Part shown: positions 15,939-38,770 of the stretch, in pieces
Layout: each line of letters opens with the position of its first letter
Position numbering within the stretch: position 1 is the first letter of the stretch
NCBI GenBank assembly: GCA_001828855.1
Contig: MHZT01000006.1
Coordinates: forward strand, 62,001 to 126,000
Direction: 5' to 3'
Length of the DNA stretch: 64,000 nt
Source: Rhodobacterales bacterium RIFCSPHIGHO2_02_FULL_62_130
Lineage (GTDB): Bacteria; Pseudomonadota; Alphaproteobacteria; Rhodobacterales; Rhodobacteraceae
Notes under the pieces: model-generated
What the model was told of the DNA's origin: nothing
The model's database searches: none
What the model saw: the letters and a program-made list of their open reading frames with translations, nothing else
Translations under genes and position numbers: made by a program

Positions 15939-15954
15939 ATTTCAAGCTTGAAAT
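15939..15954. promoter_or_regulatory. Perfect 16-bp palindrome ATTTCAAGCTTGAAAT upstream of kynU
   Basis: This is a candidate operator 66 bp before the kynU start. It overlaps a possible -35 hexamer (TTGAAA, 15949-15954... spaced 17 bp from ATTGAT). The identical 16-mer occurs at 38741-38756 in the divergent promoter of the anthranilate-CoA genes. The size and symmetry fit a dimeric winged-helix repressor such as MarR; the MarR gene at 35243-35674 is a candidate. Confidence 0.7.
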
Positions 15955-16020
15955 TTATCCAAACTCCGCTATTGATCCCCCGGAACCAAGCGTGGCACCC
16001 TGCCGCCAAAGGAGCCTCAG

Positions 16021-17214
16021 ATGACCGATTTCGCCGCCACCAAAGCCCAGTTCCACCTGCCCGAAGGCATGATCTATCTTGACGGCAACTCGCTGGGTCC
16101 GCTGCCGCGCGCCACGGCCGCACGGGTGGCAAAGACGGTGGAACAGGAATGGGGCGACATGCTGATCACCGGCTGGAACAAGGCCGGCTGGATGGACAAG
16201 CCGATGCGCGTGGGCGACCGCATCGCGCGGCTGATCGGGGCCGAGGAAGGCCATGTGGTGATGGGCGACACCCTGTCGATCAAGGTCTATCAGGCGCTGG
16301 CCTCTTGCCTTGAGATGAACCCGTCCCGAAAAATCATCCTGTCCGATACCGGCAACTTCCCCTCCGACCTCTATATGGCCGAAGGTCTCTGCCGCACGCT
16401 GGGTCAGGGGTATGAACTGAAAACCGTCGCCCCCGAAGACGTGCTGGACGCCATCGACGAAACCGTCGCCGTGGCCATGATCACCGAGGTCGATTACCGC
16501 ACGGGTCGCCGTCACGACATGGCCGCCATCACCGCCCGCGCCCATGAAAAAGGCGCGCTGGCGATCTGGGATCTGGCCCATTCGGCAGGGGCGTTTCAGG
16601 TAGAACTAGCCAAATGCAACGCCGATTTCGCGGTGGGCTGCACCTATAAATACCTGAACTCCGGCCCCGGTGGCCCCGCATTCATCTATGTCGCCCCCCG
16701 CCACGCCGATACCGCCCGCCCGGCCCTGTCCGGCTGGCAAGGCCACGCCGCCCCCTTCGCCTTCGATCTGGATTACCGCCCCGCCACCGGCGCGGAACGG
16801 ATGCGCGTCGGCACCCCGCCGATCCTGCAACTGGCAGCACTCGAGGCCTCGCTGGACATCTGGGACACGGTCGATATGGCCGCCCTGCGCAAAGCCTCCC
16901 TCGCCCTGCAAGACCAGTATATCGCCGGGGTCGAGGCCGCCTGCCCCACCCTTACCCTTGCCACCCCGCGCGACCACGCCCTGCGCGGCAGTCAAGTGTC
17001 TTTCCGCCACGCGCAAGGCTATGCCATCATGCAGGCCATGATCGCCCGCGGCGTCATCGGCGATTTCCGCGCGCCTGACATCATCCGCTGCGGCTTTACC
17101 CCGCTGTTCATCGATGCAACCGATGTGGCTCGCGCCATCGCCATCATCGCCGACATCATGCAAAACAACCTCTGGGACCGCCCCGAGTATAAAACCCGCG
17201 CGAAAGTCACCTGA
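16021..17214 (+). CDS. kynU: Kynureninase
   Basis: A 397-residue PLP enzyme that hydrolyses L-kynurenine to anthranilate and alanine. The N-terminal YLDGNSLGPLPRAT, the GDTLSIKVYQAL loop, the DLAHSAGAFQVEL segment with the PLP-ring aspartate, and CTYKYLNSGPGG with the Schiff-base lysine (about residue 210) are all characteristic. The C-terminal IIRCGFTPLFIDATDVARA is also conserved. The start has an AAAGGAG ribosome site. It is followed after 235 bp by kynA on the same strand. Its product feeds the anthranilate-CoA pathway at 30.8-43 kb, with which it shares an upstream palindrome. Confidence 0.96.
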   Translation: MTDFAATKAQFHLPEGMIYLDGNSLGPLPRATAARVAKTVEQEWGDMLITGWNKAGWMDKPMRVGDRIARLIGAEEGHVVMGDTLSIKVYQALASCLEMNPSRKIILSDTGNFPSDLYMAEGLCRTLGQGYELKTVAPEDVLDAIDETVAVAMITEVDYRTGRRHDMAAITARAHEKGALAIWDLAHSAGAFQVELAKCNADFAVGCTYKYLNSGPGGPAFIYVAPRHADTARPALSGWQGHAAPFAFDLDYRPATGAERMRVGTPPILQLAALEASLDIWDTVDMAALRKASLALQDQYIAGVEAACPTLTLATPRDHALRGSQVSFRHAQGYAIMQAMIARGVIGDFRAPDIIRCGFTPLFIDATDVARAIAIIADIMQNNLWDRPEYKTRAKVT

Positions 17215-17224
17215 TGCCCCGCCG

Positions 17225-17309
17225 TTTCATCTTGGCCCAAATACTCCCGCCGGAGGCTTCTGCCGCCGATGCAGGACGCTCCGCGGGGAGTATTTGGGCC
17301 AAGATGAAA
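17225..17309. repeat. Inverted repeat (inner arms of the composite element) between kynU and kynA
   Basis: Arms at 17225-17257 and 17278-17309 pair as TTTCATCTTGGCCCAAATAC with GTATTTGGGCCAAGATGAAA and continue into the CCGCCGGAG core. There are no outer GTAG hairpins. One arm (CGCTCCGCGGGGAG) has diverged from the usual GCCTCCGGCGGGAG. The 31-33 bp stem could terminate or attenuate transcription between the two genes. Confidence 0.8.
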
Positions 17310-17449
17310 CCGCTGCCCGCGCTGTGCCGCCCCGCCGGATGGATCGCCTTGTGGCGGACCATCGGGGCCATGTCCGTGCTGAACTGCCGCCCTGCTCATT
17401 CCTTCGCCTGACGCGGCCCCGCGTTTCGGGGCTTACCCCTTAGGAAAGA

Positions 17450-18334
17450 ATGACCATGACCAATGATCCCAAATGCCCGATGCAGGCCGATCCCAAAGCA
17501 GGGACCGCCTATGACCCCGCAGGCGACGGCGCGCAGATGTCCTTTGACGGGCGGATGTCTTACGGCGACTATCTGCAGATCGACCGTATTCTGGACAGCC
17601 AGCGCCTGCTGACCGGCGCACATGACGAGATGCTGTTCATCATCCAGCACCAGACCTCGGAACTCTGGATGCGGCTGGCGTTGCATGAACTCGACGCCGC
17701 CCGCCGCGCCATTGCCGACAACCGCGCGCCCGAGGCGTTCAAGATGCTGGCCCGCATCGCGCGGATATTCGAGCAGTTGAACAACGCTTGGGACGTGCTA
17801 CGCACCATGACGCCCTCGGATTACACCACCTTCCGCGAAGGGCTGGGGCAATCGTCGGGCTTTCAGTCATGGCAGTACCGGCTGATCGAATATGCGGTCG
17901 GCAACCGCAATCTGGCGATGCTGAAACCGCATGCCCACCGTGCCGACCTGACCGCGAAACTGGAGGCAGAACTGGCCCGCCGCAGCCTGTATGACGAGGC
18001 GCTGCACCATCTGGCCCGCGCCGGTCTGCCGGTTCCGGCCGAAGTGCTGACCCGCGATCTGCGTCAGCCCTGGGTGGCGCATGAAGGGGTGCAGGCCGTG
18101 TGGGAAACCGTCTACCGCGACCCCGCGCAGTATTGGCAAGCCTATGAACTGGCGGAAAAGCTGGTCGATTTCGAGGATTACTTCCGCCGCTGGCGTTTCA
18201 ACCACGTCACCACGGTGGAACGTGTGATCGGCTTCAAGCGCGGCACCGGCGGCACCTCGGGGGTGAATTACCTGCGCCGGATGCTGGAGGTCGAGCTTTT
18301 CCCCGAACTATGGCACCTTCGCACAACCTTGTGA
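17450..18334 (+). CDS. kynA: Tryptophan 2,3-dioxygenase
   Basis: A 294-residue heme dioxygenase that opens the indole ring of L-tryptophan to N-formylkynurenine. It carries [20 protein letters not shown] with the substrate-pocket histidine (about residue 67), [18 protein letters not shown], and [20 protein letters not shown] with the proximal heme histidine. The length is normal for bacterial tetrameric enzymes. An in-frame ATG at 17456 is equally possible; AGGAAA is upstream of both. No formamidase gene (kynB) adjoins kynU/kynA, which is unusual. A 10-bp stem hairpin lies 18 bp after the stop. Confidence 0.96.
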
Positions 18335-18351
18335 TTTTTCAACGCGCTTTG

Positions 18352-18385
18352 GACGAGGGGCTTTGACGCCCGCGCGCCCCTCGTC
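18352..18385 (+). terminator. Hairpin downstream of kynA
   Basis: A perfect 10-bp stem, GACGAGGGGC / GCCCCTCGTC, with a 14-nt loop. It is not followed by a T-run, so termination would be imperfect or Rho-assisted. Confidence 0.5.
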
Positions 18386-18447
18386 TAGCGTTCTGGCCAG
18401 AGAATCCGGGCGCGCCCCTGTGCCGCCCCCTGTCGATGGACCCATTT

Positions 18448-19386
18448 ATGCGCCTTTTCGGGACGAAACTTCTGGCCGCCTCCGCGTTGCTTCTGTCTTT
18501 GGCGGCTTGCGTGCCGGATGCCGGCCTTGTCGATGCGGGGCTGGTGGCCCCACCTGCCCCGAAACTTCTGGCAGGCGTTTATGGTCCGGTGTCAGACCCG
18601 CAATTCAGCGTTCCCGCCGTGCCGGTGGAAAAGGTTCCCGCCGAATTCCAGCGCCAGACCGTGCGCTATGACAATCCCACAGAGCAGCCCGCAGGCACCA
18701 TCATCATTGATCCCTCGGCCAAGCATCTTTACCTGCTGACCGGCAAGAAAACCGCTGTGCGCTATGGCATCGCCGTGGGGCGCGCGGGCTTTCAGTGGTC
18801 GGGCGAGGCGCTGATCACCGACCGCAAGAACTGGCCGACATGGACGCCCCCGCCGGAAATGATCGACCGCAAGCCGGAACTGGCGAAATGGGAGAAAGGC
18901 CAGCCCGGCGGCCCCGAGAACCCCTTGGGCGCGCGGGCGCTGTATCTGACGACCAACGGCATCGACTACGGCTACCGCATCCACGGCACGCCGGAATGGT
19001 TTTCCATCGGCAAGAACGCCTCGTCGGGCTGTATCCGCATGATCAATCAGGACGTGATGGACCTGTTTGACCGTGTGCCGAACGGCACCAAGGTGATCGT
19101 GCTGAATGCGGACGGGTCTTTCCCCAAAGGGCTGAACCTGCCGCCGAAGCCGCCCGCCAAGAAGAAACCCGCGCCCGAAGCGGCCCCGATCATCGTCGCC
19201 AAACCCGCCGTGATGCCCGCGCCGGTGATCACGGGTGCGACGCCGGTCGTGGCCCCCACGCCGGTTCTGGCCCCCGCCAAACCCGCCGTCCTGCCAACCA
19301 CCCCGGCCGCGACCGCAGAGCCACCGGCCTGCAAAGTGCCACTGGTGGCAGGTGCCTGCCCGCCCGAGGTCAAGACAACCCCATAA
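18448..19386 (+). CDS. L,D-transpeptidase (YkuD domain) lipoprotein
   Basis: About 312 residues. The N-terminus MRLFGTKLLAASALLLSLAA leads into the lipobox cysteine at residue 21, so it is probably an outer-membrane or periplasmic lipoprotein. The YkuD catalytic domain (about 80-215) contains IHGTPEWFSIGKNASSGCIR with the catalytic cysteine near residue 195; it forms 3-3 peptidoglycan crosslinks or attaches proteins to peptidoglycan. The C-terminal third is a low-complexity P/A/K/V linker (about 225-300). An in-frame ATG at 18436 would add four residues. The gene stands alone and ends at a bidirectional terminator. Confidence 0.88.
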   Translation: MRLFGTKLLAASALLLSLAACVPDAGLVDAGLVAPPAPKLLAGVYGPVSDPQFSVPAVPVEKVPAEFQRQTVRYDNPTEQPAGTIIIDPSAKHLYLLTGKKTAVRYGIAVGRAGFQWSGEALITDRKNWPTWTPPPEMIDRKPELAKWEKGQPGGPENPLGARALYLTTNGIDYGYRIHGTPEWFSIGKNASSGCIRMINQDVMDLFDRVPNGTKVIVLNADGSFPKGLNLPPKPPAKKKPAPEAAPIIVAKPAVMPAPVITGATPVVAPTPVLAPAKPAVLPTTPAATAEPPACKVPLVAGACPPEVKTTP

Positions 19387-19393
19387 TGCAAAA

Positions 19394-19420
19394 CGGCCCC
19401 GCAACGCTGCGGGGCCGTTT
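19394..19420. terminator. Bidirectional terminator between convergent genes
   Basis: The 10-bp stem CGGCCCCGCA / TGCGGGGCCG is flanked by AAA on the left and TTT on the right. It lies between the L,D-transpeptidase stop and the stop of the leftward sugar isomerase. Confidence 0.85.
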
Positions 19421-19435
19421 CCATTCCGCCCAGTC

Positions 19436-20119
19436 TTACAGCCACTTGTCGTAATCGCTGACCAGCAGATGCGTGGGTGCCACATCCTCGTCAATCTCGG
19501 CAAAGCGGCCAATCGGTTCGCGGAACACGTTGTCGGTGACATCATCGTTCACCGTCGAAACCTCGCCGATCAGCACATCGCCCCCCTCGCCCCAGAAGGC
19601 ATGCCAATCGCCCGGCATCAGCGTGACAGACTCGCCCGGAGCCAGCCGCAGCTTGTCGCCGGGCGCATAGGGCCGGTCGATCCCGTCACAGCGCACCAGC
19701 CCGCCGCGATCGGGCGCAAACCCGCCCGCATCGTCCGAGCCGAACAACTCGACCACCAAGGTCGCGCCGCCACGGTTGATAATATCTTCGGCCTTGATGA
19801 CATGGGTGTGCATCGGCGAAAGCTGATCCTGACGGCTGATCAGCAGCTTTTCGGCATAGCACATGCCGCCGCCCCGTTGCAGATCGGCCAGCGAGCCATT
19901 CCGCAGGGTGAACAGGAACAGCCCCAGCTCGTCAAACCGCCCCTGCCCGTAATCGGTAATATCCCAGCCGCAGCGCCCCTCGATCACCCGCCGCGCCACG
20001 CCCGCCTTGGCCTTGAACTGATCCGGCGACCAATTGGCAAAGGGCGGCAAGACAAAGCCGTAATGGCGGATCATATCCTCCGCCGCTGCCATTATGTCAT
20101 TGATCCGAGACCGTTTCAT
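19436..20119 (-). CDS. D-lyxose/D-mannose family sugar isomerase (cupin-type)
   Basis: A 227-residue cupin-fold isomerase, which interconverts aldoses and ketoses such as lyxose and xylulose with a bound divalent metal. The metal site is visible as SPMHTHVIKAEDIINRGG (two histidines and a glutamate) with a later GDWHAFWGEGG histidine. The start MKRSRINDIMAAAEDMIRHY is preceded by GGAGGGG at correct spacing; a longer in-frame extension enters the next gene and is unlikely. It may be co-transcribed with the amidotransferase gene upstream on the same strand (58-bp gap), although no shared pathway is evident. Confidence 0.85.
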   Translation of the reverse strand: MKRSRINDIMAAAEDMIRHYGFVLPPFANWSPDQFKAKAGVARRVIEGRCGWDITDYGQGRFDELGLFLFTLRNGSLADLQRGGGMCYAEKLLISRQDQLSPMHTHVIKAEDIINRGGATLVVELFGSDDAGGFAPDRGGLVRCDGIDRPYAPGDKLRLAPGESVTLMPGDWHAFWGEGGDVLIGEVSTVNDDVTDNVFREPIGRFAEIDEDVAPTHLLVSDYDKWL

Positions 20120-20177
20120 TGCGCCCCTCCGCTGCGTTTCGTCGCGACTATATCGATTGCGGACCCCTCGACAAGCG

Positions 20178-20942
20178 TTAGCGCGCCGCCCACTCCGCCA
20201 CCGCCGCCCCGAAGGCAGCAAAAAGCGGCCGCGACACCGGATCGCCCACCGCGTTCCATTCGGGATGCCATTGCACCGACAGCGTGAACCCCGCAGCCCC
20301 CTCGACATAGATCGCCTCGGGCGTGCCATCGGGGGCCACACCGTCAATCACAATCCGCGATCCCGTGCGCGCGATGCCTTGGCCGTGCAGCGTGTTGGTC
20401 ATCACCTCTTGCGCGCCCATCAGGCGGTGAAACACCCCGCCTTCGGTGAACCGCACCACATGGCGCAGCGCGAACTGCTCCTCCAGAGAGCCATCAGGCG
20501 GCATGCGATGGTTCATCCGCCCCGGCAGATCGCGGATTTCGGCGTGCAGACTGCCGCCCATCGCCACGTTCAATTCCTGAAACCCGCGACAAATCCCAAG
20601 GAAGGGCTGACCACGGTCCACACAGGCGCGGATCAGCGGCAGCGTGATCGCATCGCGGCAGCGGTCAAAATCACCATGCGCGGGGGTTTCAGCCTCGCCA
20701 TATTCGCTGGGATGCACATTCGGCCGCCCGCCGGTCAGCAGGAACCCGTCACACAGCGCCATCAACTCTTCGACCGAGACATAGCGCGGGTCCGACGGGA
20801 TGATCAGCGGCAAACACCCCGCCGCCTGCGCCACCGCCTCTGCGTTGATCGTGCCGCTGGCCTGCACGGGATAGCGGTCATTCAAATTGTGGCTGTTGCC
20901 GATAATCCCCACGACGGGGCGGCGCGGCTTGGGTGCAGACAT
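20178..20942 (-). CDS. Gamma-glutamyl-gamma-aminobutyrate hydrolase family (class I amidotransferase)
   Basis: A 254-residue PuuD-like hydrolase. It has the nucleophile in GQPFLGICRGFQELNVAMGG (cysteine about residue 118) and the rest of the triad in SVQWHPEW (His 226, Glu 228). Family members cleave gamma-glutamyl amides in polyamine or amine catabolism. FLLTGGRPNVHPSEYGE matches the PuuD substrate loop. No puu genes lie nearby, so the substrate is uncertain. It is divergent from the EamA transporter. Confidence 0.87.
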   Translation of the reverse strand: MSAPKPRRPVVGIIGNSHNLNDRYPVQASGTINAEAVAQAAGCLPLIIPSDPRYVSVEELMALCDGFLLTGGRPNVHPSEYGEAETPAHGDFDRCRDAITLPLIRACVDRGQPFLGICRGFQELNVAMGGSLHAEIRDLPGRMNHRMPPDGSLEEQFALRHVVRFTEGGVFHRLMGAQEVMTNTLHGQGIARTGSRIVIDGVAPDGTPEAIYVEGAAGFTLSVQWHPEWNAVGDPVSRPLFAAFGAAVAEWAAR

Positions 20943-21116
20943 GCGGGAACCGGTCTTGTAATGGTTTTGTCATATTAGGCACGGCTCTGGCAGAGTGTGA
21001 AGGGGCCACGGCCTCCATTGTCCCGCGATCCGCGCACAGATCCCGTGCATGTCGCAATCAGACAGGCCACCCGCAGGATCACCGCCTAGAACGGGGCAAC
21101 AACCCGAAGGACCGCC

Positions 21117-22037
21117 ATGCCCGCCCCCAGCGCTTCTGCCGCCAGCCCCAAACCCCATAGCCTGCTTGGCATCGCCCTGATGCTGGGCGCGATGGCCGCG
21201 CTGCCGATGATCGATGTCTTTGCGAAATTTCTGGGCCACCAGGGCATTCCCGTGCTGCAGATCGTCTGGGCGCGGGTCGCCTTTGGGGCCATCGTCACCC
21301 TGCCCTTCGCGCTGCGCCACGGCGGCCCGGCGGCGCTGGTGCCGCAACGCCCGGTCTACCACCTGTTCCGAGCGGGCTTTCTGATTGCCGCGACCTTCTG
21401 CTTTTTCCTGTCGCTGAAATTCCTGCCCATTGCCGACGCTCTGGCGATCTTTTTCGTGCAGCCTCTGGTGGTCACGCTGCTGTCGCCGCTGGTGCTGGGC
21501 GAGACGGTGGGCCGCCAGCGCTGGATTGCCGTCTGCATCGGCTTTATCGGCACGCTGATCATCATCCGCCCCGGTTTCGTGGCGCTGAACCCCGGCAGCC
21601 TGCTGGCTCTGGCCGCAGGCACCAACCTTGCGATCTACTTCGTGATGACACGCAAGATTTCCGGCCAAGCCCCCGCAATGGTGACAACCTTTCAAACCAA
21701 CGTCATGGGCGCGCTGATCACCTGCGTCGCCATGCCGTTTCTATGGGTCACGCCCAATGCCGAACAATGGGCGATGTTTCTGGGCCTTGGCAGCATCGCC
21801 ACCTTTGGCCATTACCTGATCGTGCGCGCCTATGACCATGCCGAGGCCTCACTGCTGGCCCCGCTCGCCTATACCGAGATGGTGATGGCCACTGTGCTGG
21901 GCTGGTGGTTTTTCGGAGACTTCCCCGACCACTGGACCATCCTCGGCGTCGCCATCCTGATCGGCTGCGCGATCTTCATCTCATGGCGCGAAAGGCTGCG
22001 CGGCATCGCCCCGCCAATCGAATTCGAACAACCCTAG
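21117..22037 (+). CDS. EamA/DMT-family transporter
   Basis: A 306-residue integral membrane protein with ten predicted helices arranged as two EamA repeats (about residues 15-145 and 155-290). RIYHLFRAGFLIAATFCFFL-like and LAPLAYTEMVMATVLGWWFFGD segments are characteristic; the latter is the conserved end of the second repeat. Likely an exporter of amino acids or other metabolites. The stop codon TAG shares its final G with the first base of the downstream repeat hairpin. Confidence 0.85.
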   Translation: MPAPSASAASPKPHSLLGIALMLGAMAALPMIDVFAKFLGHQGIPVLQIVWARVAFGAIVTLPFALRHGGPAALVPQRPVYHLFRAGFLIAATFCFFLSLKFLPIADALAIFFVQPLVVTLLSPLVLGETVGRQRWIAVCIGFIGTLIIIRPGFVALNPGSLLALAAGTNLAIYFVMTRKISGQAPAMVTTFQTNVMGALITCVAMPFLWVTPNAEQWAMFLGLGSIATFGHYLIVRAYDHAEASLLAPLAYTEMVMATVLGWWFFGDFPDHWTILGVAILIGCAIFISWRERLRGIAPPIEFEQP

Positions 22038-22153
22038 GTGCGTGACAAGCACGCACCCTACCCCTTGCGCTTCATCTTGGCCCAAATACTCCCCGCGGAG
22101 CGTCCTGCATCCGCGACAAGTGCCTCCGGCGGGAGTATTTGGACCAAGATGAA
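22037..22153. repeat. Composite intergenic repeat lacking the right outer hairpin
   Basis: GGTGCGTGACAAGCACGCACC (a 21-bp hairpin, 22037-22057) plus CTACCCC is followed by inner arms at about 22071-22100 and 22121-22153 (GCCTCCGGCGGGAGTATTT core). The partner hairpin is absent, so this is a decayed or partial copy. It begins within the stop codon of the EamA gene. Confidence 0.8.
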
Positions 22154-22198
22154 ACCACGACCAATTCAAATCCCCGACGACGGCAAAGGTTAAGAACC

Positions 22199-22260
22199 GG
22201 TTAAATGCCCATCCCAAGCCCTTGATAAACCATATCTAAAAATGGTCCCGCGTTGGGACC
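22199..22260. repeat. Conserved 62-bp element with GGTCCC/GGGACC terminal hairpin (copy 1)
   Basis: GGTTAA, then CCCAA, then CTTGAT, then GGTCCC-GCGTT-GGGACC occur at the same offsets as in 63130-63190 (GGTTAA to GGTCCC: 40 bp in both; TTGAT to GGTCCC: 22 bp in both). In both copies the hairpin immediately follows the stop of a leftward gene. Here the leftward strand reads through the hairpin into ATTTTTAGA, so it probably terminates the aminotransferase transcript. Confidence 0.6.
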
Positions 22261-22263
22261 GCC

Positions 22264-23469
22264 CTAAACCCCCGCCGCCACGATCCTTGCCGCAGCCGCC
22301 AGCGCCCCACCGCCATGCGGGATGCCAAGGCTGACCATCCCCGCCTCCATCACCGCCAGCGCCCCCAGCGTCATATGGGCGTTCACATGCCCCATATGGG
22401 CCACCCGCAAAAAGCCGTGATAGGCAGGCTCGGACGGGGCCGCCATGCCCAAGCCGATCCCCAGCGTGACGCCCGCGTGTTTTTCCGTCCACTCCCGCAG
22501 CCGCGTCGCATGGGGCGCGCCGAACCGCGCCGCCGTGACCGACCGCCCCCTGTGGGCCGGATCGGCCACATTCAGCGCAATCGCCGGATTGCCCGCCGAC
22601 CATGCGTCAAAGGCCGCCCAGACCGCGCGGGCCAGCACGTCATGGCGGTGCCAGACGGCTGGCAGGCCTTCCTCGTGCAGGATCATCGTCAAAGCCTCGC
22701 GCAGGCCAAAGAGGTGATGCGTGGGGGCGGTGCCGTTCCAGAGTTGCCAGAACTCGGCCCCATCCGCGCGCGGCGTCCAGTCCCAATAGGGCGAGCGCAG
22801 ATCCGCCGCCCTTGTCGCCGCCCGCGCCTTTTCCGAGAACCACAGAAACCCCATCCCCGGCGGCGTCATCAGCCCCTTCTGGCTGGCCGCCACGGTGACA
22901 TCCACACCCCATGCATCCATGTGATATTCATCGCATCCCAGCGCCGCGATGCAATCCACCGCCAGAAGTGCGGGATGACCCGCCGCATCCATCGCCGCAC
23001 GCAAGCCCGCCACATCCGTCCGCACCGTTGATGCCGTATCCACCTGCGTTGTCAGCACAGCTCTGATCCGACCTGCTTTGTCGGCCCGCAGCGCCGCCTC
23101 GACCTGCCCCATATCGGCGGGAGAGGATTTGCCGAAATCCAGCACTTCGACCTCGATCCCCTGCGCCCGCGCCGTCCCCGCCCAGCCAAGCCCGAACTGC
23201 CCCGTCGCAATCACCAGTGCCTTGTCCCCGCGCGAGAACAGGTTGGCATTGGCCGCCTCCCAGATCGCATGGCCATTGCCGATATAGGCCGCCACATTGG
23301 CAGTCGTCCCCGCAAGGGTCCGCAGATCCGGCCACAGCGTCTCCACCATCCTGTGCAGATCCCCCTCGTAGATATTCGGGGCCGCGCGGTGCATCGCCGC
23401 CAGCACGCGGTCGGGCATGACCGAGGGGCCTGGAATGGCAAGGTAAGGACGACCGTTGGCAAGGCTCAT
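22264..23469 (-). CDS. Class V PLP aminotransferase (alanine/serine-glyoxylate type)
   Basis: A 401-residue fold-type I PLP enzyme. The opening YLAIPGPSVMPDRVLAAMHR, the ALLAVDCIAALGCDEYHMDA segment with the PLP aspartate, and VTVAASQKGLMTPPGMGF with the Schiff-base lysine (about residue 198) identify the serine-pyruvate/alanine-glyoxylate aminotransferase group. A GGAG ribosome site precedes the ATG. It could make glycine from glyoxylate or act on related amino acids. It is monocistronic and terminated by the GGTCCC hairpin. Exact amino donor not predictable. Confidence 0.87.
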   Translation of the reverse strand: MSLANGRPYLAIPGPSVMPDRVLAAMHRAAPNIYEGDLHRMVETLWPDLRTLAGTTANVAAYIGNGHAIWEAANANLFSRGDKALVIATGQFGLGWAGTARAQGIEVEVLDFGKSSPADMGQVEAALRADKAGRIRAVLTTQVDTASTVRTDVAGLRAAMDAAGHPALLAVDCIAALGCDEYHMDAWGVDVTVAASQKGLMTPPGMGFLWFSEKARAATRAADLRSPYWDWTPRADGAEFWQLWNGTAPTHHLFGLREALTMILHEEGLPAVWHRHDVLARAVWAAFDAWSAGNPAIALNVADPAHRGRSVTAARFGAPHATRLREWTEKHAGVTLGIGLGMAAPSEPAYHGFLRVAHMGHVNAHMTLGALAVMEAGMVSLGIPHGGGALAAAARIVAAGV

Positions 23470-25406: not shown

Positions 25407-25415
25407 GAGATGCAC

Positions 25416-30657: not shown

Positions 30658-30804
30658 ATGTCCGCCGCAGATGAATTGGCCGAAATCCGCGCCGAAATCG
30701 AACGGCTCCGCCAGCGTGAGGCGGTTTTGTCGGCCCGCGCCGCCAATGCACCGCCTCTGCCGCCCCGCCCCGGCTGGCCGATCCAGCGCGGGGCGCTGCA
30801 CTAA
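30658..30804 (+). CDS. Small 48-residue helical protein
   Basis: Predicted product MSAADELAEIRAEIERLRQR followed by EAVLSARAANAPPLPPRPGW and a short end. The first 30 residues form a charged amphipathic helix with heptad-like leucines (coiled coil), followed by a proline-rich tail with PGWP. Short proteins with this helix-plus-PRPGWP plan recur in Rhodobacteraceae as far as I recall. AGAAAGGA lies just upstream. The stop overlaps by 4 bp the stop of the convergent CoA ligase gene. Function unknown; coding assignment is moderately supported. Confidence 0.5.
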   Translation: MSAADELAEIRAEIERLRQREAVLSARAANAPPLPPRPGWPIQRGALH

Positions 30805-32420
30805 CTCTGCCGCAGCCGGAACCGCTGGATCTTGCCGGTCTGGGTTTTCGGCAAGGCCCGCACGAAAACCACGCGGCGGGGGTATTTATAGGGCGCGATC
30901 ACCCGTTTCACATGATCCTGCAACAGCTTGACCATCAGCGCATCGGGTTCGCGCCCCTCGGCCAGCACCACATGCGCCTCGACGATCTGGCCGCGTTCCT
31001 CATCCGGACAGCCGATCACCGCACATTCAACCACATCGGGATGCGACAGCAGCGCCGCCTCCACCTCTGGCCCCGCGATGTTGTAGCCCGCGCTGATAAT
31101 CATATCGTCCGAGCGCGCAGCGAAGTGGAAACGCCCCTCCTCGTCCTGCCAGAAACTGTCGCCCGTCAGGTTCCAGCCATCGCGCACATATTTCATCTGC
31201 CGGTCATCTGCCAGATAGCGGCAGCCCGTCGGCCCCCGCACCGCCAGCCGGCCCACCTCGCCGCGCGGCATTTCCTGCATGTTCTCGTCCACGATCCGCG
31301 CCTCGTATCCCGTCACGGGCCGCCCCGTGCAGCCCGGCCGGTGGTCGTCAAAGCGGTTGGTCAGGAAGATATGCAGCATCTCGGTGGCGCCGATACCATC
31401 CAGCATCGGCTTGCCGGTTTTCGCCATCCATTCCTCATAAACCGGCGCGGGCAGGGTTTCCCCCGCCGAAACCGCCGCGCGCAAAGACGACAGATCGGCC
31501 CCCTCTGACATCGCCTTCAGCATCACCCGATAGGCGGTGGGGGCGGTGAAACACACCGTCGCCTTATGAGTCTGGATCAATTCGATCATATTGGTGGGGG
31601 TCGCTTGCTCCAGCAGCGCCGCCGCCGCCCCGAAGCGCAGCGGAAACACCGCCAACCCGCCCAGCCCAAAGGTAAAGGCCAAGGGCGGAGACCCCACAAA
31701 CACATCCTCGGGCGTCACCCCCAGAACCTCGCGCGCATAGCCATCCGCGATGATCAGCAGGTCACGATGAAAGGCCAACGCGCCCTTCGGCTCTCCGGTG
31801 GTGCCAGAGGTAAACCCGATCAGCGCCACATCATCGCGCCCGACCGGCGGCGCGGTAAAGCGCACCGATTTCGACAGCGCCACACGGTCCAGTTCCGCAT
31901 CATGGTTCGCGGTGCCATCAAAGCCGATCACGGTTTTGAGGTGCTGCGAGTGTTTGGCGCAGGCCACCAGTTCTTCCATCAACCGCGTATCGCACAGGGC
32001 AAATTCGATCTCGGCGCGGTCAACAATCTGCCCCAACTCGCCCGCCCGCAGCATCGGCATGGTGTTGACCACCACCGCCCCCGCCTTGGTCGCGGCCAAC
32101 CAGCAGGCCACCATCGCCGGATTATTGGCCGACCGGATCAGCACACGATTTCCGGGCTTTACGCCGTAATCCTCAACCAGCGCATGCGCGATCCGGTTCG
32201 ACCAGTCGGTCAACTCCTTGTAGGTCCGCTGCCGCCCGTTGCCGATCAGCGCAGTATGGTCGCCAAAGCCGCGCTCGACCATCCGGTCGGTCAGTTCCAC
32301 CGCCGCATTCATGTAGTCTGGGTAGTCAAACCCCTCCAGCCGGATTTCCGGCCATTGATCGGCAGGGGGCAAACGATCACGGGTAAAGCTGTCAACGTGG
32401 CCCGATGGTCCCAGCATCAT
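30801..32420 (-). CDS. abmG: 2-Aminobenzoate-CoA ligase
   Basis: A 539-residue AMP-forming acyl-CoA synthetase that activates anthranilate to 2-aminobenzoyl-CoA. It shows the AMP-binding core IGFTSGTTGEPKGALAFHRD, the adenylate motif DGIGATEMLHIF, and the hinge GRFHFAARSDDMIISAGYNI. The C-terminal lysine region is LPKTQTGKIQRF. The assignment to aminobenzoate rests on context: it ends an operon headed by the diagnostic monooxygenase/reductase. Its start overlaps the RidA gene stop (ATGA). Benzoate- or other aryl-CoA ligase activity is the main alternative. Confidence 0.88.
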   Translation of the reverse strand: MMLGPSGHVDSFTRDRLPPADQWPEIRLEGFDYPDYMNAAVELTDRMVERGFGDHTALIGNGRQRTYKELTDWSNRIAHALVEDYGVKPGNRVLIRSANNPAMVACWLAATKAGAVVVNTMPMLRAGELGQIVDRAEIEFALCDTRLMEELVACAKHSQHLKTVIGFDGTANHDAELDRVALSKSVRFTAPPVGRDDVALIGFTSGTTGEPKGALAFHRDLLIIADGYAREVLGVTPEDVFVGSPPLAFTFGLGGLAVFPLRFGAAAALLEQATPTNMIELIQTHKATVCFTAPTAYRVMLKAMSEGADLSSLRAAVSAGETLPAPVYEEWMAKTGKPMLDGIGATEMLHIFLTNRFDDHRPGCTGRPVTGYEARIVDENMQEMPRGEVGRLAVRGPTGCRYLADDRQMKYVRDGWNLTGDSFWQDEEGRFHFAARSDDMIISAGYNIAGPEVEAALLSHPDVVECAVIGCPDEERGQIVEAHVVLAEGREPDALMVKLLQDHVKRVIAPYKYPRRVVFVRALPKTQTGKIQRFRLRQS

Positions 32421-32821
32421 TCCCCCTCCGGCACAACGGCCGTTGCCTCGATTTCCACCAATGCCCGATCCTCGACCAAGGCCACAACCTGCACCAAGGC
32501 CATCGCCGGATAATGCCGCCCGATCAACGCCTTGTAGGCCGCCCCGATTTCCTTGAGGCTGGCCAGATATTGACGCTTGTCAGTAACATACCACGTCAGG
32601 CGCACCAGATGTTCGGGTTTCGCACCGCCCTCGGCCAGCACCTCGACGATGCTGCGCAGGGCCTGTTCGACCTGCCCCGCAAAGTCATCCGTCTCGAACT
32701 CCTGCTCGGCATTCCAGCCGATAATCCCGCCGGTAAACACCATCCGGCCCGAGGCAGCCACGCCATTGGCATAGCCCCGCGCCGCTTTCCAATGTTTCGG
32801 GTGCAAAATCTCGTGGCTCAT
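32417..32821 (-). CDS. RidA/YjgF family protein of the anthranilate-CoA operon
   Basis: A 134-residue RidA-fold protein (GMVFTGGIIGWNAEQEF-like strand, VVEVLAEGGAKPEHLVRLTWYVTD, and a C-terminal VVALVEDRALVEIEATAVVP). Family members hydrolyse reactive enamines and imines to ketones and ammonia. The terminal segment ends EIEATAV, where classical RidA has the catalytic arginine a few residues earlier in an ARxxVE context; here the equivalent position reads DRALVEIEA, retaining an arginine. It is translationally coupled to both neighbours. I infer that it hydrolyses the enamine produced from 2-aminobenzoyl-CoA, releasing the anthranilate nitrogen. Confidence 0.85.
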   Translation of the reverse strand: MSHEILHPKHWKAARGYANGVAASGRMVFTGGIIGWNAEQEFETDDFAGQVEQALRSIVEVLAEGGAKPEHLVRLTWYVTDKRQYLASLKEIGAAYKALIGRHYPAMALVQVVALVEDRALVEIEATAVVPEGE

Positions 32822-33228
32822 GCCGCGCCCTCCAAATGCCGCGCAAGGCGGTCCCGCATTTCAACCGGCCATTCCGCCGCCTTCATTCCGTCAATCCACA
32901 CCAGCGTCAGGGTGGCACGCAAACGCGCCTCGCCCGCCATCACACCGGTGATCCGCACCGTCACCGAGGACCGCCCCACCTTCACCACATCCAGCGCAAA
33001 GGTTACGATATCGCCCAAGCGCGAGGGCGCCATGAAATCCGCCTCGATCCGCACCGTCGGCACGCCGTTCTGCGCCGCAACATGCATCGAGGCAAAAGAC
33101 CGCCCGACCTCATCCTTGAAAAAGTTTTCCACGACCGAGTTGGTCATCTCGAAATAGCGCGGATAAAACACGATCCCGGCGGGGTCACAGTGGTTGAACT
33201 CGATCTGGATATCGCGGGAGTAGGTCAT
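32818..33228 (-). CDS. Acyl-CoA thioesterase, 4-hydroxybenzoyl-CoA thioesterase family
   Basis: A 136-residue hotdog-fold thioesterase. The active-site segment [20 protein letters not shown] contains the aspartate used by Pseudomonas-type 4-hydroxybenzoyl-CoA thioesterase. It probably releases CoA from dead-end aromatic or alicyclic thioesters formed in the pathway, protecting the CoA pool. It overlaps RidA and the acyl-CoA dehydrogenase by 4 bp on each side. Confidence 0.88.
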
Positions 33229-34391
33229 GCCAGAATGCTCCGCGCAATCACCACGCGCTGCACGTCCGAAGCCCCCTCGTAAATCCGCAAGGCTCTGATT
33301 TCACGATACAAAGCCTCAACCGCAAAGCCATGCCGCACCCCGTCACCGCCATGCAGTTGCACCGCCATGTCGATCACCTTCTGCGCGGCCTCGGTGGCAT
33401 AAAGCTTGGCCATCGCCGCCTCGCGCGACACCCGCGCAGCCCCTTGATCCTTGACCCAAGCCGCGCGGTAGATCAGCAAAGCCGCGGCATCGATCTGCAG
33501 CGCCATGTCCGCCAAATGCCCCTGCACCATCTGCAATTCCGCCAGCGCAGCCCCTTGAATCCGCCGCGCCTTCACCCGCGCCAAAGCCTCGTCCAGCGCG
33601 CGCCGCGCAAAGCCCAAGGCCGCCGCCCCGACGGTGGACCGGAACACATCCAGCACCGACATGGCAATCTTGAAGCCATCCCCCGCCTTCCCGATCAGTG
33701 CGCCTTCCGGCAGGATCACATCGCGCAAGGCCAGATGCGCCAAAGGATGCGGCGCGATCACCTCGATCCGCTCCACCACCGAAAGCCCGACCGTATCCGC
33801 AGGCAGCAAAAACGCCGAAAGCCCCTTGGCCCCCGGAGCCTCACCCGTGCGGGCGATGATCACATAAACATCGGCAATCCCGCCGTTCGAGATATAGGTT
33901 TTCTCGCCGTTCAGCACCCAGCCGCCCTGGCCGCGCACCGCCGTCGTCGCCGTCGCCGCCACGTCAGACCCCGACCCCGGTTCGGTCAGCGCAAAGCCCG
34001 AAATGGCATGGCCCGCCCGCGTCAGTGACAGCCATTCCCGCTGCACCTCGGACCCGAACAGCGACACCGCCCCCATGCCAAGCCCCTGCATCGCAAAGGC
34101 AAAATCCGCCAAACCGTCATGTCGCGCCAAAGTCTCGCGGATCAGGCACAGGGTGCGAACATCCAGCACTTCGCCCGCCGCAGCGCCGGAATGCTGCAAC
34201 CAGCCGCCCGCACCCAAGGCCGCGACCAACCCGCGACAGGCCGCATCCACATCGCCATGATCCACCGGCAGATGCGCGCCGGCCCAAGCCTCAAGTGCCT
34301 CGGCCAAGGCGCGGTGGCGCTCCTCGAAAAACGGCCATTCCAAGAAACTGCGATCCGGCACGGGTTCATCCTCTTCGTTCAAATATCCCAC
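33225..34391 (-). CDS. Acyl-CoA dehydrogenase
   Basis: A 388-residue FAD enzyme that introduces a 2,3 double bond into an acyl-CoA. The flavin/substrate motif [19 protein letters not shown], the [19 protein letters not shown] loop, and the C-terminal [20 protein letters not shown] and [13 protein letters not shown] (catalytic glutamate in IYEG) are present. In this operon it should act on the ring-derived alicyclic or ring-opened CoA ester. The first residues ([15 protein letters not shown]) are less conserved, so a start slightly downstream is possible. A 45-bp gap to the upstream hydratase gene is the only non-overlapping junction in the operon. Confidence 0.9.
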
Positions 34392-34436
34392 GGGGGAAGC
34401 GGCCTTGGCCGCGCGGGGGTGTGAAACCCCCGTCTG

Positions 34437-35246
34437 TCAGTTCCCCGCGAAAACCGGCTTTTCCTTGGCGACAAAGGCGTTGTAGGCGCGCTCGAAATCC
34501 TTGGTCTGCATGCAGATCGCCTGCGCCTGCGCCTCGGCCTCGATCGCCTGCTCCAGCCCCATATTCCATTCGTGGTTCAACTGCGTCTTGGTCATGGAAT
34601 GGGCAAAGGTCGGCCCCGAAGCCAGCCGCCGCGCAAGGGTCATCGCCTCGGCCTCCAGCACGTCCGCGCCATGCAGCGCGTTCCAATAGCCCCACCGCTC
34701 GCCCTCGGCGGCTGACATCACGCGGCCCGTATAAAGCAGTTCCGCCGCCCGCCCTTGCCCGATGATGCGCGGCAGCATCGCGCAAGCGCCCATATCGCAG
34801 CCCGCCAAGCCTACGCGCGTAAACAGGAAGGCCGTCTTCGCCTCGGGTGTCGCAAGCCGCAGATCGGCGGCCATCGAGATGATCGCCCCCGCGCCAACAG
34901 CCACCCCGTCCACAGCCGCGATGATCGGTTTTCCGCAGGAAATCATTGCCTTGACCAGATCGCCCGTCATGCGGGTAAAGGCCAGCAGGTCTTTCATCGG
35001 CAGCCCGATCAGCGGCCCGATGATGTCATGCACATCCCCGCCCGAGCAGAAATTCCCCCCGTTTGACGCAAACACCACCACATCGACATCCTCCGCATAG
35101 ACCAGCGCGCGGAAGGTGTCGCGCAACTCGGCATAGCTCTCAAAGGTCAACGGGTTCTTGCGGTCGGGCCGGTTCAGCCGCACCACGGCGATGCGGTCTG
35201 CCACCTCCCACAGGAAATGCTGCGGTTTCAACCCTGCCAGTTTCAT
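34437..35246 (-). CDS. Enoyl-CoA hydratase/isomerase family protein
   Basis: A 269-residue crotonase-fold enzyme. The oxyanion-hole segments [20 protein letters not shown] and [20 protein letters not shown] are evident, followed by [20 protein letters not shown]. Members hydrate or isomerise unsaturated CoA esters; some hydrolyse alicyclic rings. It is coupled to the MarR gene by a 4-bp overlap. Whether it hydrates, isomerises or opens the ring is not decided by sequence. Confidence 0.88.
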
Positions 35247-35674
35247 TGCTTGGCCATCCTTTTCAAAATCTCGGTCAGCGCGTCCAGATCAGACTCGGAC
35301 AGGCCCGCAAACAGCCGATCTACCTCGCGTTCATGGTCGGTGGCCAGCCCTTCAAACTGCGCCAACCCTTCGGGGGTCAGCGCCACGAAAACCGTGCGGC
35401 GGTCGGTTTCCGACGGCGTACGCCGCACCAGACCATCCTTTTCCAGCCGGTCCACCACCGCCGTCGCATTGCCGTTTGACACCAGCAGCATCCGCGAAAG
35501 CTCGCTCATCGTCACGCCATCGCGGCGGCGATACAGCGCCGCCAGAACGTCAAAACGCGGCAAGGTGGTGTCGTGCTTCACCCGCAGAAACTCACGCAGA
35601 TGGCTTTCAGAGGCCCGCGTGACGCCCAGCATCCTGATCCACATCTTCAGGCGGCGTTTTGACAGGTCGCTCAC
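35243..35674 (-). CDS. MarR-family regulator inside the anthranilate-CoA operon
   Basis: A 143-residue winged-helix regulator. The DNA-binding part reads [20 protein letters not shown] for helix-turn-helix and [20 protein letters not shown] for the wing (DRR is the family signature). GTG at 35674 is the likely start, because it overlaps the SDR stop as GTGA and has GGGGGG upstream; a longer frame would run into the SDR gene. MarR repressors in aromatic-CoA operons usually respond to the aryl-CoA intermediate. The palindrome at 38741 (and 15939) is a plausible target. Confidence 0.9.
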
Positions 35675-36411
35675 AATTCGCCCCCCGCGATGGTGATGGC
35701 TTGGCCGTTGATGCCGTCCGACCCCGCCCCGCACAAAAACAGCGCGGTCGCGGTGACTTCCGAAGGCTGGATCAGCCGGTTCTGCGGGTTCATCGCCTCA
35801 AGTGCGCCGCGTGCTTCGGCCAGTGAACGGCCGGTTTTCTCGGCAATCACCTGCACGGAATGATCCGTCATCGGTGTGTCCAGAAAGCCGGGGCAAATCG
35901 CGTTCACCGTGATCGGCTTGCGCGCGATTTCCAGCGCCAAGGACCGCGTGAGGCCAATCACCCCGTGTTTCGCCGCCGCATAGGGGGCAACCTTGGCATA
36001 GCCCTTCAGCCCGGCGGTCGAGGCCACCGAAATCAGCCGCCCCCAGCCCGTCATCTGCAACAACCCCTCGCGCAGGGTCAAAAACACCCCCGTCAGGTTC
36101 ACCGCAATCATCGCATTCCATTGATCCAGCGAGGTTTTCGTCATCGGCGCGGAATCCGCCGCCCCCGCATTGGCGATCACGATATCGCAAGGGCCAGCCG
36201 CCGCGAACATCGCCTTGACGGAAAGCTCATCCGTCACATCAGCCTGCACCGCGCGGATACCCGAGGCCCGCGCCGCCACCGCCTGCAAGGGTGCCAGCCT
36301 GCGGCCCGAGATCACCACTTCGGCCCCCGCAGCGGCGAAGCCGAGGGCGAGGTTTTCGCCCGCCCCCGTGCCGCCACCGGTAATCAGAACGCGTTTGCCT
36401 GCCAGTGTCAT
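35671..36411 (-). CDS. Short-chain dehydrogenase/reductase of the anthranilate-CoA operon
   Basis: A 246-residue SDR. Cofactor motif [23 protein letters not shown] motif [10 protein letters not shown], and the catalytic YAAAKHG (Tyr-xxx-Lys). The start [13 protein letters not shown] overlaps the abmA stop as ATGA. It probably oxidises or reduces a cyclic hydroxy/keto-acyl-CoA intermediate. The C-terminus [20 protein letters not shown] is standard. Confidence 0.9.
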
Positions 36412-38690
36412 ACGCGGATCGTCTCCTGCTGTTTCTGCACCAACCGCCGCGCCTGATCGCGGCCCGCAAGATAGGGCAGCGGCCATTCGGTGCCAGCATC
36501 GCCCAAGGCCACCGATTGATGCAACGTCCAATAGGGGTCGGCCAGATGCGGGCGGGCAAGGCAGACCAGATCGGCACGGCCCGCCAGAAGAATCTGGTTC
36601 ACCTGCTCGGCCTCGGTGATATTGCCGACAGCCATCGTGGCAAGCCCTGCCTCGTTGCGGATACGGTCGCTGAACGGGGTCTGGAACATGCGGCCATAAA
36701 CAGGGCGCGCGTCGGTGCTGGTCTGGCCTGCCGACACATCGATGATATCGGCCCCCTCCATCGCAAACATCCGCGCGATTTCAACGGCCTCGGCGGGCGA
36801 GACACCGCCATCCACCCAATCGGTTGCCGAAATCCGCACCGACATCGGCTTATGCCCCGGCCAATAGCGCCGCATCTCGCGGAACACTTCCAGCGGATAG
36901 CGCATCCGGTTTTCCAAGGAACCGCCGTATTCATCTTCCCGCACATTCGACAGCGGCGAGATAAAGCTTGAGATCAGATAGCCATGCGCCGCGTGCAACT
37001 CGATCATGTCAAAGTCTGCGCCTTCGGCCATTTCCACGGCCTTGATGAACTGGCGCAGAACCGCGTCCATATCATTGCGGTCCATCGCCTTTGGCACCGC
37101 ATTGCCCGCAGCCCAAGGAATCGCGGATGCCGACAGCAGCGGCCAATTCCCCGAAACCAAAGGCGCATCCGCATCGGCCCAGCCGACTTGGGTAGAGCCT
37201 TTGCGCCCCGCATGGCCGATCTGGCAGCAGGTTTTCGCCTTGGTCTCGGCATGGATGAAATCGTTGATCCGCTTCCATGCGGCCTCGTGCTTTGGCGTAT
37301 AAAGCCCCGTGCAGCCGGGGGTGATACGGCCATTGGCAGAAACGCAGGTCATTTCCGTATAAACCAGCCCCGCGCCGCCCTTGGCGCGCTCGGCGTAATG
37401 CACGAAATGCCAATCCCCCGGCACACCATCAATCGCGCGATATTGCGCCATGGGCGACACGACAACGCGGTTTTCAAGCGCCATGCCACGCAGTTGGAAC
37501 GGCGCGAACATCGGCGCGCGGCCCGCCTGCCCGCCATATTGCGCGGCAAACCAGTCCTCGGTTTCACGCAGCCAAGCCGGATCACGCAGGCGCAGGTTTT
37601 CGTGGGAAATCCGCTGCGAGCGGGTCAGCAGCGAATAGGCGAATTGCTGCGGCGGCAGGTCAAGATAACGTTCAACCTCCTCGAACCACTCCAGCGAATT
37701 GCGCGCCGCCGATTGCAGACGCAGCACTTCAACCCGACGTTCAGCCTGATAACGCTCAAAGGCCGATTTCATATCGGGTTCGGAGTGCAGATATTCTGCC
37801 AGCGCAATCGCACTATCAAACGCCAGCCGCGAACCGGAGCCGATCGAGAAATGCCCCGTCGCCGCCGCATCGCCCATCAGCACCACGTTTTCATGATACC
37901 ACTGACCGCAAATCACACGCGGGAACTGCATCCAGACCGCCGAGCCGCGCAAATGCGCCGCATTCGACATCAGATCATGCCCGCCAAGGTGGGCCGCAAA
38001 GATCTTGCGGCAGGTTTCCACCGTTTCTTCCTTAGACATATCCGCAAAGCCCCAGCGGTCCCACGTTTCCGGCAGACATTCCACGATGAAGGTCGCGGTG
38101 TTGTCGTCAAACTGGTAGACATGCGCCCAGACCCAGCCATGTTCGGTTTTCTCGAAGATGAAGGTGAAGGCGTCGTCGAACTTGGCATGGGTGCCAAGCC
38201 AGACGAACTTGCACTTGCGCAGATCAATATCGGGCTGGAACACCTCTTGGTATTCGCGCCGCACCAAGGAATTGATGCCATCCGTCGCCACGACGATATC
38301 GTATTCCTTGCGGTATTCTTCAGCCGATTTGAACTCGGTCTCAAAGCGCATATCCACGCCCAATTCCCGCGCGCGGGATTGCAGCAGGATCAGCATCGCC
38401 TTGCGGCCAATCCCTGCAAATCCATGCCCGCCCGACACCGTGCGAACCCCGTTATGCACCACCGCAATATCGTCCCAATAGGCGAAATTGCTGCGGATCG
38501 ACTCGGTCGAGACCGGATCATTCTTCTGCATCCGCCCCAGCGCGTCATCCGACAGCACCACACCCCAGCCGAACGTATCGTTGGCCTTGTTGCGCTCCAT
38601 CACGACGACCTCGTGCGCAGGGTCGCGCAGCTTCATCGAGATTGCGAAGTAAAGACCGGCGGGGCCACCGCCCAAGCACAGAACTTTCAT
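36408..38690 (-). CDS. abmA: 2-Aminobenzoyl-CoA monooxygenase/reductase (fused flavoenzyme)
   Basis: A 760-residue fusion that defines the pathway. The N-terminal half (about 1-390) is an FAD aromatic monooxygenase: [20 protein letters not shown], and [20 protein letters not shown] for the FAD ribityl site. The C-terminal half (about 400-750) is an Old-Yellow-Enzyme-type FMN reductase: [37 protein letters not shown] and [16 protein letters not shown]. Established role of the fusion in Azoarcus evansii: hydroxylation at C5 plus ring reduction of 2-aminobenzoyl-CoA to a non-aromatic 2-amino-5-oxocyclohexene-carbonyl-CoA. GGAGG lies 7 bp before the chosen ATG; upstream in-frame ATGs cross the operator. 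Confidence 0.95.
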
Positions 38691-38740
38691 GGCCATTCCT
38701 CCATCATGCGTTGAAGCCAGAGTTACACCGCCGCAAAACA

Positions 38741-38770
38741 ATTTCAAGCTTGAAATTTCTGACTTGAAAT
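38741..38770. promoter_or_regulatory. Divergent promoter operator of the anthranilate-CoA gene set
   Basis: A perfect palindrome ATTTCAAGCTTGAAAT (38741-38756), identical to the one before kynU, plus an extra half-site CTTGAAAT at 38763-38770. It lies 51 bp before abmA (leftward) and 42 bp before the hydratase gene (rightward), so one bound dimer could control both operons. Leftward, a TTGAAA hexamer in the palindrome is followed 17 bp later by AACTCT, a weak -10. Confidence 0.75.

Follow-up and report, generated by a model that had tools for sequence, protein, structure and literature searches.

MarR-type regulators are already known from pathways in which aromatic acids are degraded as thioesters of coenzyme A (CoA), and the closest described system is that of CouR, the repressor of the p-coumaroyl-CoA pathway in Rhodococcus jostii RHA1. 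According to the part of the work on CouR considered here (PMC4737184), its inverted-repeat box overlaps the -35 element, two divergent promoters depend on a single operator, the box is common to several operons of the pathway, and the protein is responsive to the thioester but not the acid. MarR regulators that steer the catabolism of auxin, likewise a tryptophan-derived aromatic, are described for Variovorax and other bacteria in the part of PMC9613470 that was covered. Here we report a comparable arrangement in a window of 64,000 nucleotides (the whole stretch of DNA analysed) from Rhodobacterales bacterium RIFCSPHIGHO2_02_FULL_62_130. The same 16-bp palindrome, ATTTCAAGCTTGAAAT, precedes kynU, the kynureninase gene that produces anthranilate, and the divergent abm genes, which are read as using it. 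In our best reading this would be a new case of a familiar type of regulon, with a CouR-like build, in which the kynurenine and 2-aminobenzoyl-CoA pathways are joined. We give a probability of about 80% to one MarR repressor regulon joining kynU and the abm genes, with 2-aminobenzoyl-CoA as the most likely ligand.

The relation to CouR is remote in sequence, the PDB chain labelled CouR (6c28) being matched at E 6e-6. The CouR box is cATTGA-N5-TCAATg, whereas the site here is ATTTCAAGCTTGAAAT, frequently present as two copies offset by 14 bp, and a box of the type ATTGA-N5-TCAAT was not found here. Moreover, unlike that of CouR, the proposed regulon includes the gene that makes the substrate. 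The auxin-catabolism regulators are known under the name IadR, and Variovorax MarR structures are among the Foldseek matches of the window MarR protein. They belong to a different pathway, and the word "anthranilate" is absent from the main text of PMC9613470. The closest solved sequence is 3boq (65 bits), an uncharacterised MarR protein of Silicibacter pomeroyi that likewise has NGN in its recognition stretch. HpaR, MprA, BilQ and the other NCBIfam MarR subfamilies show similarity at the family level only: the best named one, HpaR (TIGR02337), gave 46.1 bits for a cut-off of 121.2, and the score was below the curated cut-off in each of the 17 families matched. The AndR-type AraC regulator of anthranilate 1,2-dioxygenase is also concerned with anthranilate use, judging by the name of its NCBIfam model, but it is of another protein family, and the AndR-like gene of the window, found in 12 of the 33 site genomes searched, does not follow the palindrome.

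In the window, ATTTCAAGCTTGAAAT is found exactly at 15939-15954 (operator O-kyn, 66 bp upstream of kynU) and at 38741-38756 (operator O-abm1, intergenic, with abmA on one side and the divergent hydratase gene on the other). Both are perfect palindromes, and neither is assigned a strand. A weaker copy with three mismatches, O-abm2 (38755-38770, likewise without strand), is offset by 14 bp from O-abm1, and its right half is the half-site CTTGAAAT at 38763-38770. These three matches compare with 0.14 expected in 64 kb, and none of 100 shuffles got to three. The scan of the organism's own genome (4,970,223 bases in 53 contigs) gave two exact places, none with one mismatch, two with two and ten with three, one of the latter being the 38755 copy; this makes 14 places with up to three mismatches versus two for the reversed control. 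The places with two mismatches precede frames resembling, by eye, an aldo/keto reductase and an ABC (ATP-binding cassette) ATPase, and we regard them as chance. An earlier sequence-only reading of the window had pointed out the identical palindrome at the two places, an extra half-site at 38763 and an overlap with a TTGAAA hexamer. All of this was found again, the hexamer lying inside each exact copy, and the 16-mer is not scattered, with just these two exact copies in 4.97 Mb. We have hardly any doubt that the palindrome, judged by these comparisons, is a real operator.

For conservation upstream of abmA, 80 loci were used, the best 80 of 130 relatives, comprising named genomes and metagenome-assembled genomes and seeded with the MarR protein. 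They are mostly Rhodobacteraceae (Cypionkella, Pseudorhodobacter, Tabrizicola, Gemmobacter, Paracoccus and others), with Pannonibacter, Aestuariivirga and Rhizobium-type entries among the remainder. Of the 80 loci, 76 contained the start of abmA together with no less than 100 bp before it. The best match in these 76 promoters had no mismatch in 37, one in 18, two in 13, three in 6 and four in 2, so that 68/76 loci carry a site with at most two mismatches; each of 293 permuted palindromes gave 0/76. The best site ends 44-80 bp ahead of the abmA start, and a second site with up to three mismatches stands 14 bp off in 38 loci and 15 bp off in another 9. A comparison of diverged genomes, with 20 abmA promoters chosen by hand, included 15 genomes with a MarR protein of about 49-59% identity, abmA and no near-perfect site, and in 12 of these the best match before abmA had 2-3 mismatches. 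The diverged sites of distant genomes are often still paired 14 bp apart, which would be a close packing for MarR dimers. The abmA genes of two genomes without a MarR match (G033 and G102; G, C and L numbers are our handles for genomes, contigs and loci) have no palindrome, the best matches having five and four mismatches; they retain GGGTTGAAAT with the left half gone.

The candidate regulator is encoded within the abm operon itself (35243..35674, minus strand, with a GTG start at 35674). It matches Pfam MarR_2 with 60.6 bits and MarR with 58.4 bits, both above the cut-offs. The AlphaFold2 monomer model (mean predicted local distance difference test 93.5, predicted template-modelling (TM) score 0.79) is matched best in Foldseek by structures of MarR proteins, some of which include operator DNA; normalised by query length, TM ranges from 0.54 to 0.86 among the 50 listed. 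The predicted fold is that of the MarR family. Family searches covered 295 genomes out of a larger group and gave a MarR match (E 1e-25) in 106, abmA (E 1e-150) in 106 and kynU (E 1e-60) in 241. Sites with at most one mismatch were found in 49 of the 295 genomes (67 sites versus two for the reversed control), and the MarR match was present in 42 of these 49, compared with 106/295 overall (p 4e-15). The palindrome, which a MarR dimer would be expected to bind, is present and tracks the MarR gene across genomes. Where the MarR protein has just 39-54% identity, a site near abmA with no more than one mismatch is often retained. All 21 aligned proteins (the window MarR protein and 20 mostly remote ones) have the recognition stretch VS[NGA]GNxT. 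Very probably, on this co-occurrence, the MarR protein of the abm operon is what binds the palindrome.

Gene contexts were established for 43 loci out of the 67 sites. Most are at abmA, kynU or acyl-CoA neighbours, and several have no pathway gene at all; others are at a Rid-like gene (G128, G137, G142) or at MarR genes (G193, G197, G210). Some single loci may be mentioned. In G280 an exact 16-mer (L150, G280:C11, around 894624) stands before a gene whose product resembles, by eye, an ABC binding protein of the Liv type; in that genus an uptake system may belong to the regulon. In G212 a one-mismatch site (L027, G212:C125:10278) lies 69 bp before a frame resembling, by eye, trpC (indole-3-glycerol-phosphate synthase), which may be chance.

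The kynU side was followed with a matrix trained on the abmA sites alone and run over the 200 bp before kynU, with the 99.9% level of shuffled sequence as threshold. This test comprised 56 of the 241 kynU-bearing family genomes, namely 30 loci and 26 genomes fetched by hand; the latter were mostly the next identity ranks, and six (G124, G280, G024, G068, G119, G023) were chosen as MarR holders. It left out G244, G292, G181, G220 and G287, which fall within those ranks and have no MarR match, and G022, G186, G228 and G069, which have one. The site was above threshold in 15 of the 24 genomes with a MarR protein of at least 59% identity, in 9 of the 15 with 46-54% identity and in none of the 17 without a MarR match. 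G068, with only about 134 bp before kynU, was scored negative; G166 was scored as MarR-less, although this incomplete genome has an abmA fragment, and without it the last count is 0/16. Fisher's test of the kynU site against the MarR gene gave p 3e-5, and 6e-6 for all MarR-positive genomes, both uncorrected for relatedness. The split is sharp, most positives having 0-3 mismatches and negatives 5-10, with a few intermediates among the genomes with a remote MarR protein. In the window's own genome and five near kin the two sites are 22.8-27.7 kb apart on a single contig; in G034 and G175 they are more than 1 Mb apart, and in G285 and G191 (the abm site of the latter with two mismatches) they are on different contigs. 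Therefore, the link is no by-product of neighbourhood.

The position of the operator with respect to the promoters gives further information. TTGAA is present in 76/76 abmA promoters, and an extended -10 element, seen as conserved TG, A and T columns, follows 17 bp past TTGAAA. In the window this corresponds to a -35 hexamer at 38742..38747 (minus strand) within O-abm1 and an extended -10 (TG, then AACTCT) at 38719..38727, with its hexamer at 38724-38719. By the same geometry, the kynU promoter would have its -35 hexamer TTGAAA at 15948..15953 (plus strand) within O-kyn and a candidate -10, TATTGAT, at 15970-15976 (plus strand). Hence, as for CouR, the operator covers the -35 hexamer of the pathway promoters, the hexamer being deduced from conservation and not from transcript mapping. 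This would be the usual place for a repressor site. On the other side of the divergon, where 38741-38770 sits between abmA and the rightward hydratase gene, the promoter scan did not place a rightward promoter. Like the sites, their conservation and the co-occurrence with the MarR gene, the -35 overlap is a result of sequence comparison.

From these results we infer binding, repression and a ligand, as follows. A MarR dimer would bind ATTTCAAGCTTGAAAT, cover the -35 hexamer TTGAAA and bar RNA polymerase from kynU and abmA; the divergent rightward operon would probably be shut likewise. At the abm divergon, the tandem operators 14 bp apart could take two dimers side by side. The repressor would be freed by an aromatic compound of the pathway, with 2-aminobenzoyl-CoA as the likeliest candidate and anthranilate as the second, and in this way the anthranilate-making kynU, the anthranilate-using genes and the repressor's own gene would be switched jointly. 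As the MarR gene is within the abm operon, the protein would control its own level.

Several observations weigh against a single regulon of this kind. The abmA count is no independent test of the MarR link, the loci having been fetched with MarR. Three of the 15 hand-picked diverged genomes (G263, G233, G260) have just 4-5 mismatches before abmA, and three genomes with a MarR match and an abmA homologue of 49% identity (G055, G255, G282) have seven, seven and four; in G282 the MarR gene is about 1 kb from that homologue, which lacks the operator. At E 1e-25 the MarR match is lacking in seven of the 49 site genomes. Two of these are incomplete and have abmA beside the site, namely G021 (79% complete) and G166 (71% complete, with a fragment of the gene), and in G210 the site precedes a MarR-like gene of 38% identity; G029, G036, G207 and G286 are unexplained. 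A simple sigma-70 consensus scan found no promoter at kynU or abmA, and the alignment was relied on instead. At kynU, the site is missing in 9 of the 24 genomes with a close MarR protein, including the near relative G155, whose MarR protein is 93% identical, and at the looser 99% level one of the 17 MarR-less kynU promoters passes (G036, with five mismatches).

A second set for kynU, drawn from 50 of the 80 named loci, had 49 rows, since G342 gave no kynU match, the match of G305 at a contig end and a second copy in G306 were left out, and G332 contributed two rows. The site was above threshold in 21 rows, and 28 were without it, which also counts against the link. This set shares at least six genomes with the first (G247, G121, G178, G280, G234 and G135, same coordinates), and 16/43 remain above threshold when those six are removed. 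Pannonibacter sp. SL95 and P. carbonis (L099, L100), with a poor site 145-148 bp away, are doubtful positives. Among named relatives, Cypionkella psychrotolerans has both sites (L039 and L197), and Paracoccus denitrificans DSM 413 has the abmA site (L052) and none before its kynU-like gene (L241). Eight changes are required to place the site label on a 30-row kynU tree, and at least four of them are forced by well-supported branches; as few as eight were obtained in 55 of 500 shuffles, the relatives not being independent, and this again is unfavourable. The conservation expected by the sequence-only reading thus stands upstream of abmA (68/76 with at most two mismatches), and at kynU it stands in only part of the MarR genomes. 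On these comparisons the kynU branch of the regulon is not universal and varies between lineages, and it seems to be easily gained or lost because it is absent in nine close-MarR genomes, G155 among them. A side observation concerns G282:C33 (L282), which is perhaps a sister system using another site.

The alternative that survives best keeps the operator and the MarR repressor, with anthranilate (or kynurenine) as effector in place of the CoA thioester; we consider it a serious one, somewhat under even odds. MarR proteins that bind free acids are known, the structural matches including entries titled with salicylic acid, benzoic acid, indole-3-carboxylic acid and 6-hydroxynicotinic acid, and kynU acts upstream of any CoA thioester, so that induction by a free acid would be the most straightforward arrangement for this branch. 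However, the MarR gene travels with acyl-CoA genes, since abmA, the acyl-CoA dehydrogenase and the enoyl-CoA hydratase were present in 54/54 full loci (all fetched with MarR), and CouR, with the same promoter design, answers the thioester and not the acid in the part of PMC4737184 considered. We tentatively favour 2-aminobenzoyl-CoA as the ligand, at close to even odds. If the thioester is indeed sensed, kynU would be induced by a later product of its own pathway, and the resulting feed-forward loop would sustain itself once tryptophan or anthranilate arrives.

It is improbable that another factor, either the AndR-like AraC protein encoded at 43135-44184 or an unlinked regulator, binds the palindrome. 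In favour of this, the AraC gene adjoins the rightward operon and is similar to the anthranilate 1,2-dioxygenase regulator (165.5 bits for an AndR cut-off of 350); in addition, the MarR match is absent from some of the site genomes, and the site from some of the MarR genomes. Against this, an AraC match (E 1e-30) was found in only 12 of the 33 site genomes searched (out of 49), it is absent from G247, which is of the same genus and has the same site pair, and AraC proteins of at least 35% identity are within the 10-kb flanks of just 6/54 full loci. On this distribution, among the genomes searched, we reject the AndR-like protein as the binder. Besides, symmetric dimers are more natural binders of a perfect palindrome than AraC proteins are. 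The proposal of the sequence-only reading, that kynU and the abm divergon share a regulator and that the MarR protein of the abm operon is the candidate, is therefore well supported short of binding and ligand, the MarR gene following the site (42/49) where the AraC gene does not.

The MarR protein might act as an activator, as some members of the family do (PMC4737184, in the part covered), which we find equally improbable; an operator over the -35 hexamer, with 17 bp to the extended -10 across the 76 promoters, is in the usual place for a repressor, and repression is quite likely the mode of action. Even less credible is the idea that the conserved sequence is a mere shared promoter element. 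The right half is indeed the -35 hexamer and the most conserved part of the site in the 76-promoter alignment, but the left half is conserved too (columns 2 and 3 in 76/76, columns 5 and 6 at 93% and 96%, in a profile whose rows were aligned on the abmA-proximal site itself), and a second copy is often found 14 bp upstream. The kynU genes of the 17 MarR-less genomes are without the palindrome, and the abmA genes of G033 and G102 keep GGGTTGAAAT without the left half. We reject a bare -35 hexamer because of the left-half conservation and the MarR-less kynU promoters. Lastly, the chance that the two 16-mers, identical and 22.8 kb apart, derive from a duplicated promoter segment or from coincidence is practically negligible: their 60-bp flanks per side agree at just 26/120 and 35/120 positions in the two orientations, which rules out a duplicated segment, and the site pair recurs in other genera, including the distant and separate-contig cases given above.

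Returning to the proposed regulon of kynU and the abm genes under the MarR repressor, its candidate members can be described with the annotation that profile searches allow. The kynU gene (16021..17214, plus strand) matches NCBIfam TIGR01814 with 294 bits (cut-off 246.4). It is followed by the tryptophan 2,3-dioxygenase gene (tdo, 17450-18334, NCBIfam/Pfam), whose start is 235 bp past kynU. An inverted repeat with 43-nt arms lies in the gap, and the window scan, which allowed three mismatches, found no separate operator for tdo. For these reasons, tdo is not claimed for the regulon. The leftward operon, on the minus strand, begins with abmA (36408..38690), a two-part flavoprotein monooxygenase/reductase that matches NF006101 with 1259 bits (cut-off 1078), and continues with an SDR-family (short-chain dehydrogenase/reductase) dehydrogenase (35671..36411, NCBIfam profile search), the MarR gene, an enoyl-CoA hydratase family protein (34437..35246, NF006107) and an acyl-CoA dehydrogenase (33225..34391) assigned at the family level, the equivalog cut-off not being reached. 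Then come a YbgC/FadM-like acyl-CoA thioesterase (32818..33228) and a Rid-family protein (32417..32821), both below the curated cut-offs, and a benzoate-CoA-ligase-like acid-CoA ligase (30801..32420; TIGR02262, 366.9 bits, just below the cut-off of 375.25), read as a putative anthranilate-CoA ligase.

The rightward operon, on the plus strand, comprises a PaaF-like enoyl-CoA hydratase (38783..39556, with a second ATG at 38798; 269 bits, below the PaaF cut-off of 371), a 3-hydroxyacyl-CoA dehydrogenase (39553..40668, below the curated cut-offs), a thiolase nearest to 3-oxoadipyl-CoA thiolase (40665..41840; 575.9 bits, just below the cut-off of 605) and, as last gene, a kynureninase-like paralogue, kynU2 (41830..42966; TIGR01814 with 88 bits, below the cut-off, and Pfam Aminotran_5 and KYNU_C). 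In G280 a kynU2-like gene together with an enoyl-CoA hydratase has a one-mismatch operator of its own (L151). The profile searches in NCBIfam and Pfam agreed with the kynU, monooxygenase/reductase and MarR calls of the sequence-only reading, but the NCBIfam model for abmA is named after a bifunctional salicylyl-CoA 5-hydroxylase/oxidoreductase and not after 2-aminobenzoyl-CoA. The match does give abmA the two-part flavin monooxygenase/OYE-type (old yellow enzyme) build of the anthranilate-CoA pathway, which we take to be a sign of 2-aminobenzoyl-CoA monooxygenase/reductase, and from this build and the link to kynU, abmA is read here as that enzyme.

Other features of the window were also seen. 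A frame at 45120-46352, near the anthranilate genes, has a styrene-monooxygenase substrate-binding domain. The repeat GGAGTATTTNNNCCAAGATGAA has ten occurrences with up to two mismatches, at 2103-2186, 17226-17308, 22071-22153, 43011-43094, 49208 and 59059; eight of them form four inverted pairs about 61 bp apart, and one pair lies between kynU and tdo, inside the 43-nt arms. These repeats look like a family of terminators or of elements resembling repetitive extragenic palindromes.

In the open literature covered, in part and with subscription papers mostly outside (PMC9613470, PMC4737184, PMC5487221, PMC6449761, PMC3737221, PMC5343134), no MarR regulator of kynU or of 2-aminobenzoyl-CoA genes is described. 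Nor did the literature searches, made in open papers, turn up a described regulator for anthranilate use by way of CoA thioesters in Rhodobacteraceae and some neighbours. A wider picture, which we think possible but would not bet on, is that a sensor of 2-aminobenzoyl-CoA shuts the route from tryptophan to central metabolism at both kynU and the abm genes, with tandem sites that, at a spacing of about one and a third turns, would carry two dimers on different faces and make the abm divergon respond more sharply than single-site kynU, and with a kynU branch that has been repeatedly gained and lost; the repressor and the abm operator being kept across several alphaproteobacterial groups would be part of the same tentative picture. 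The operator held in common with kynU also bears on the substrate, since the enzyme family is named after salicylyl-CoA and the joint control points to anthranilate. The site and the protein would make a simple sensor pair. In our opinion, an operator, a candidate regulator and a probable regulon can now be assigned to CoA-dependent anthranilate use in Rhodobacteraceae and some neighbouring groups.

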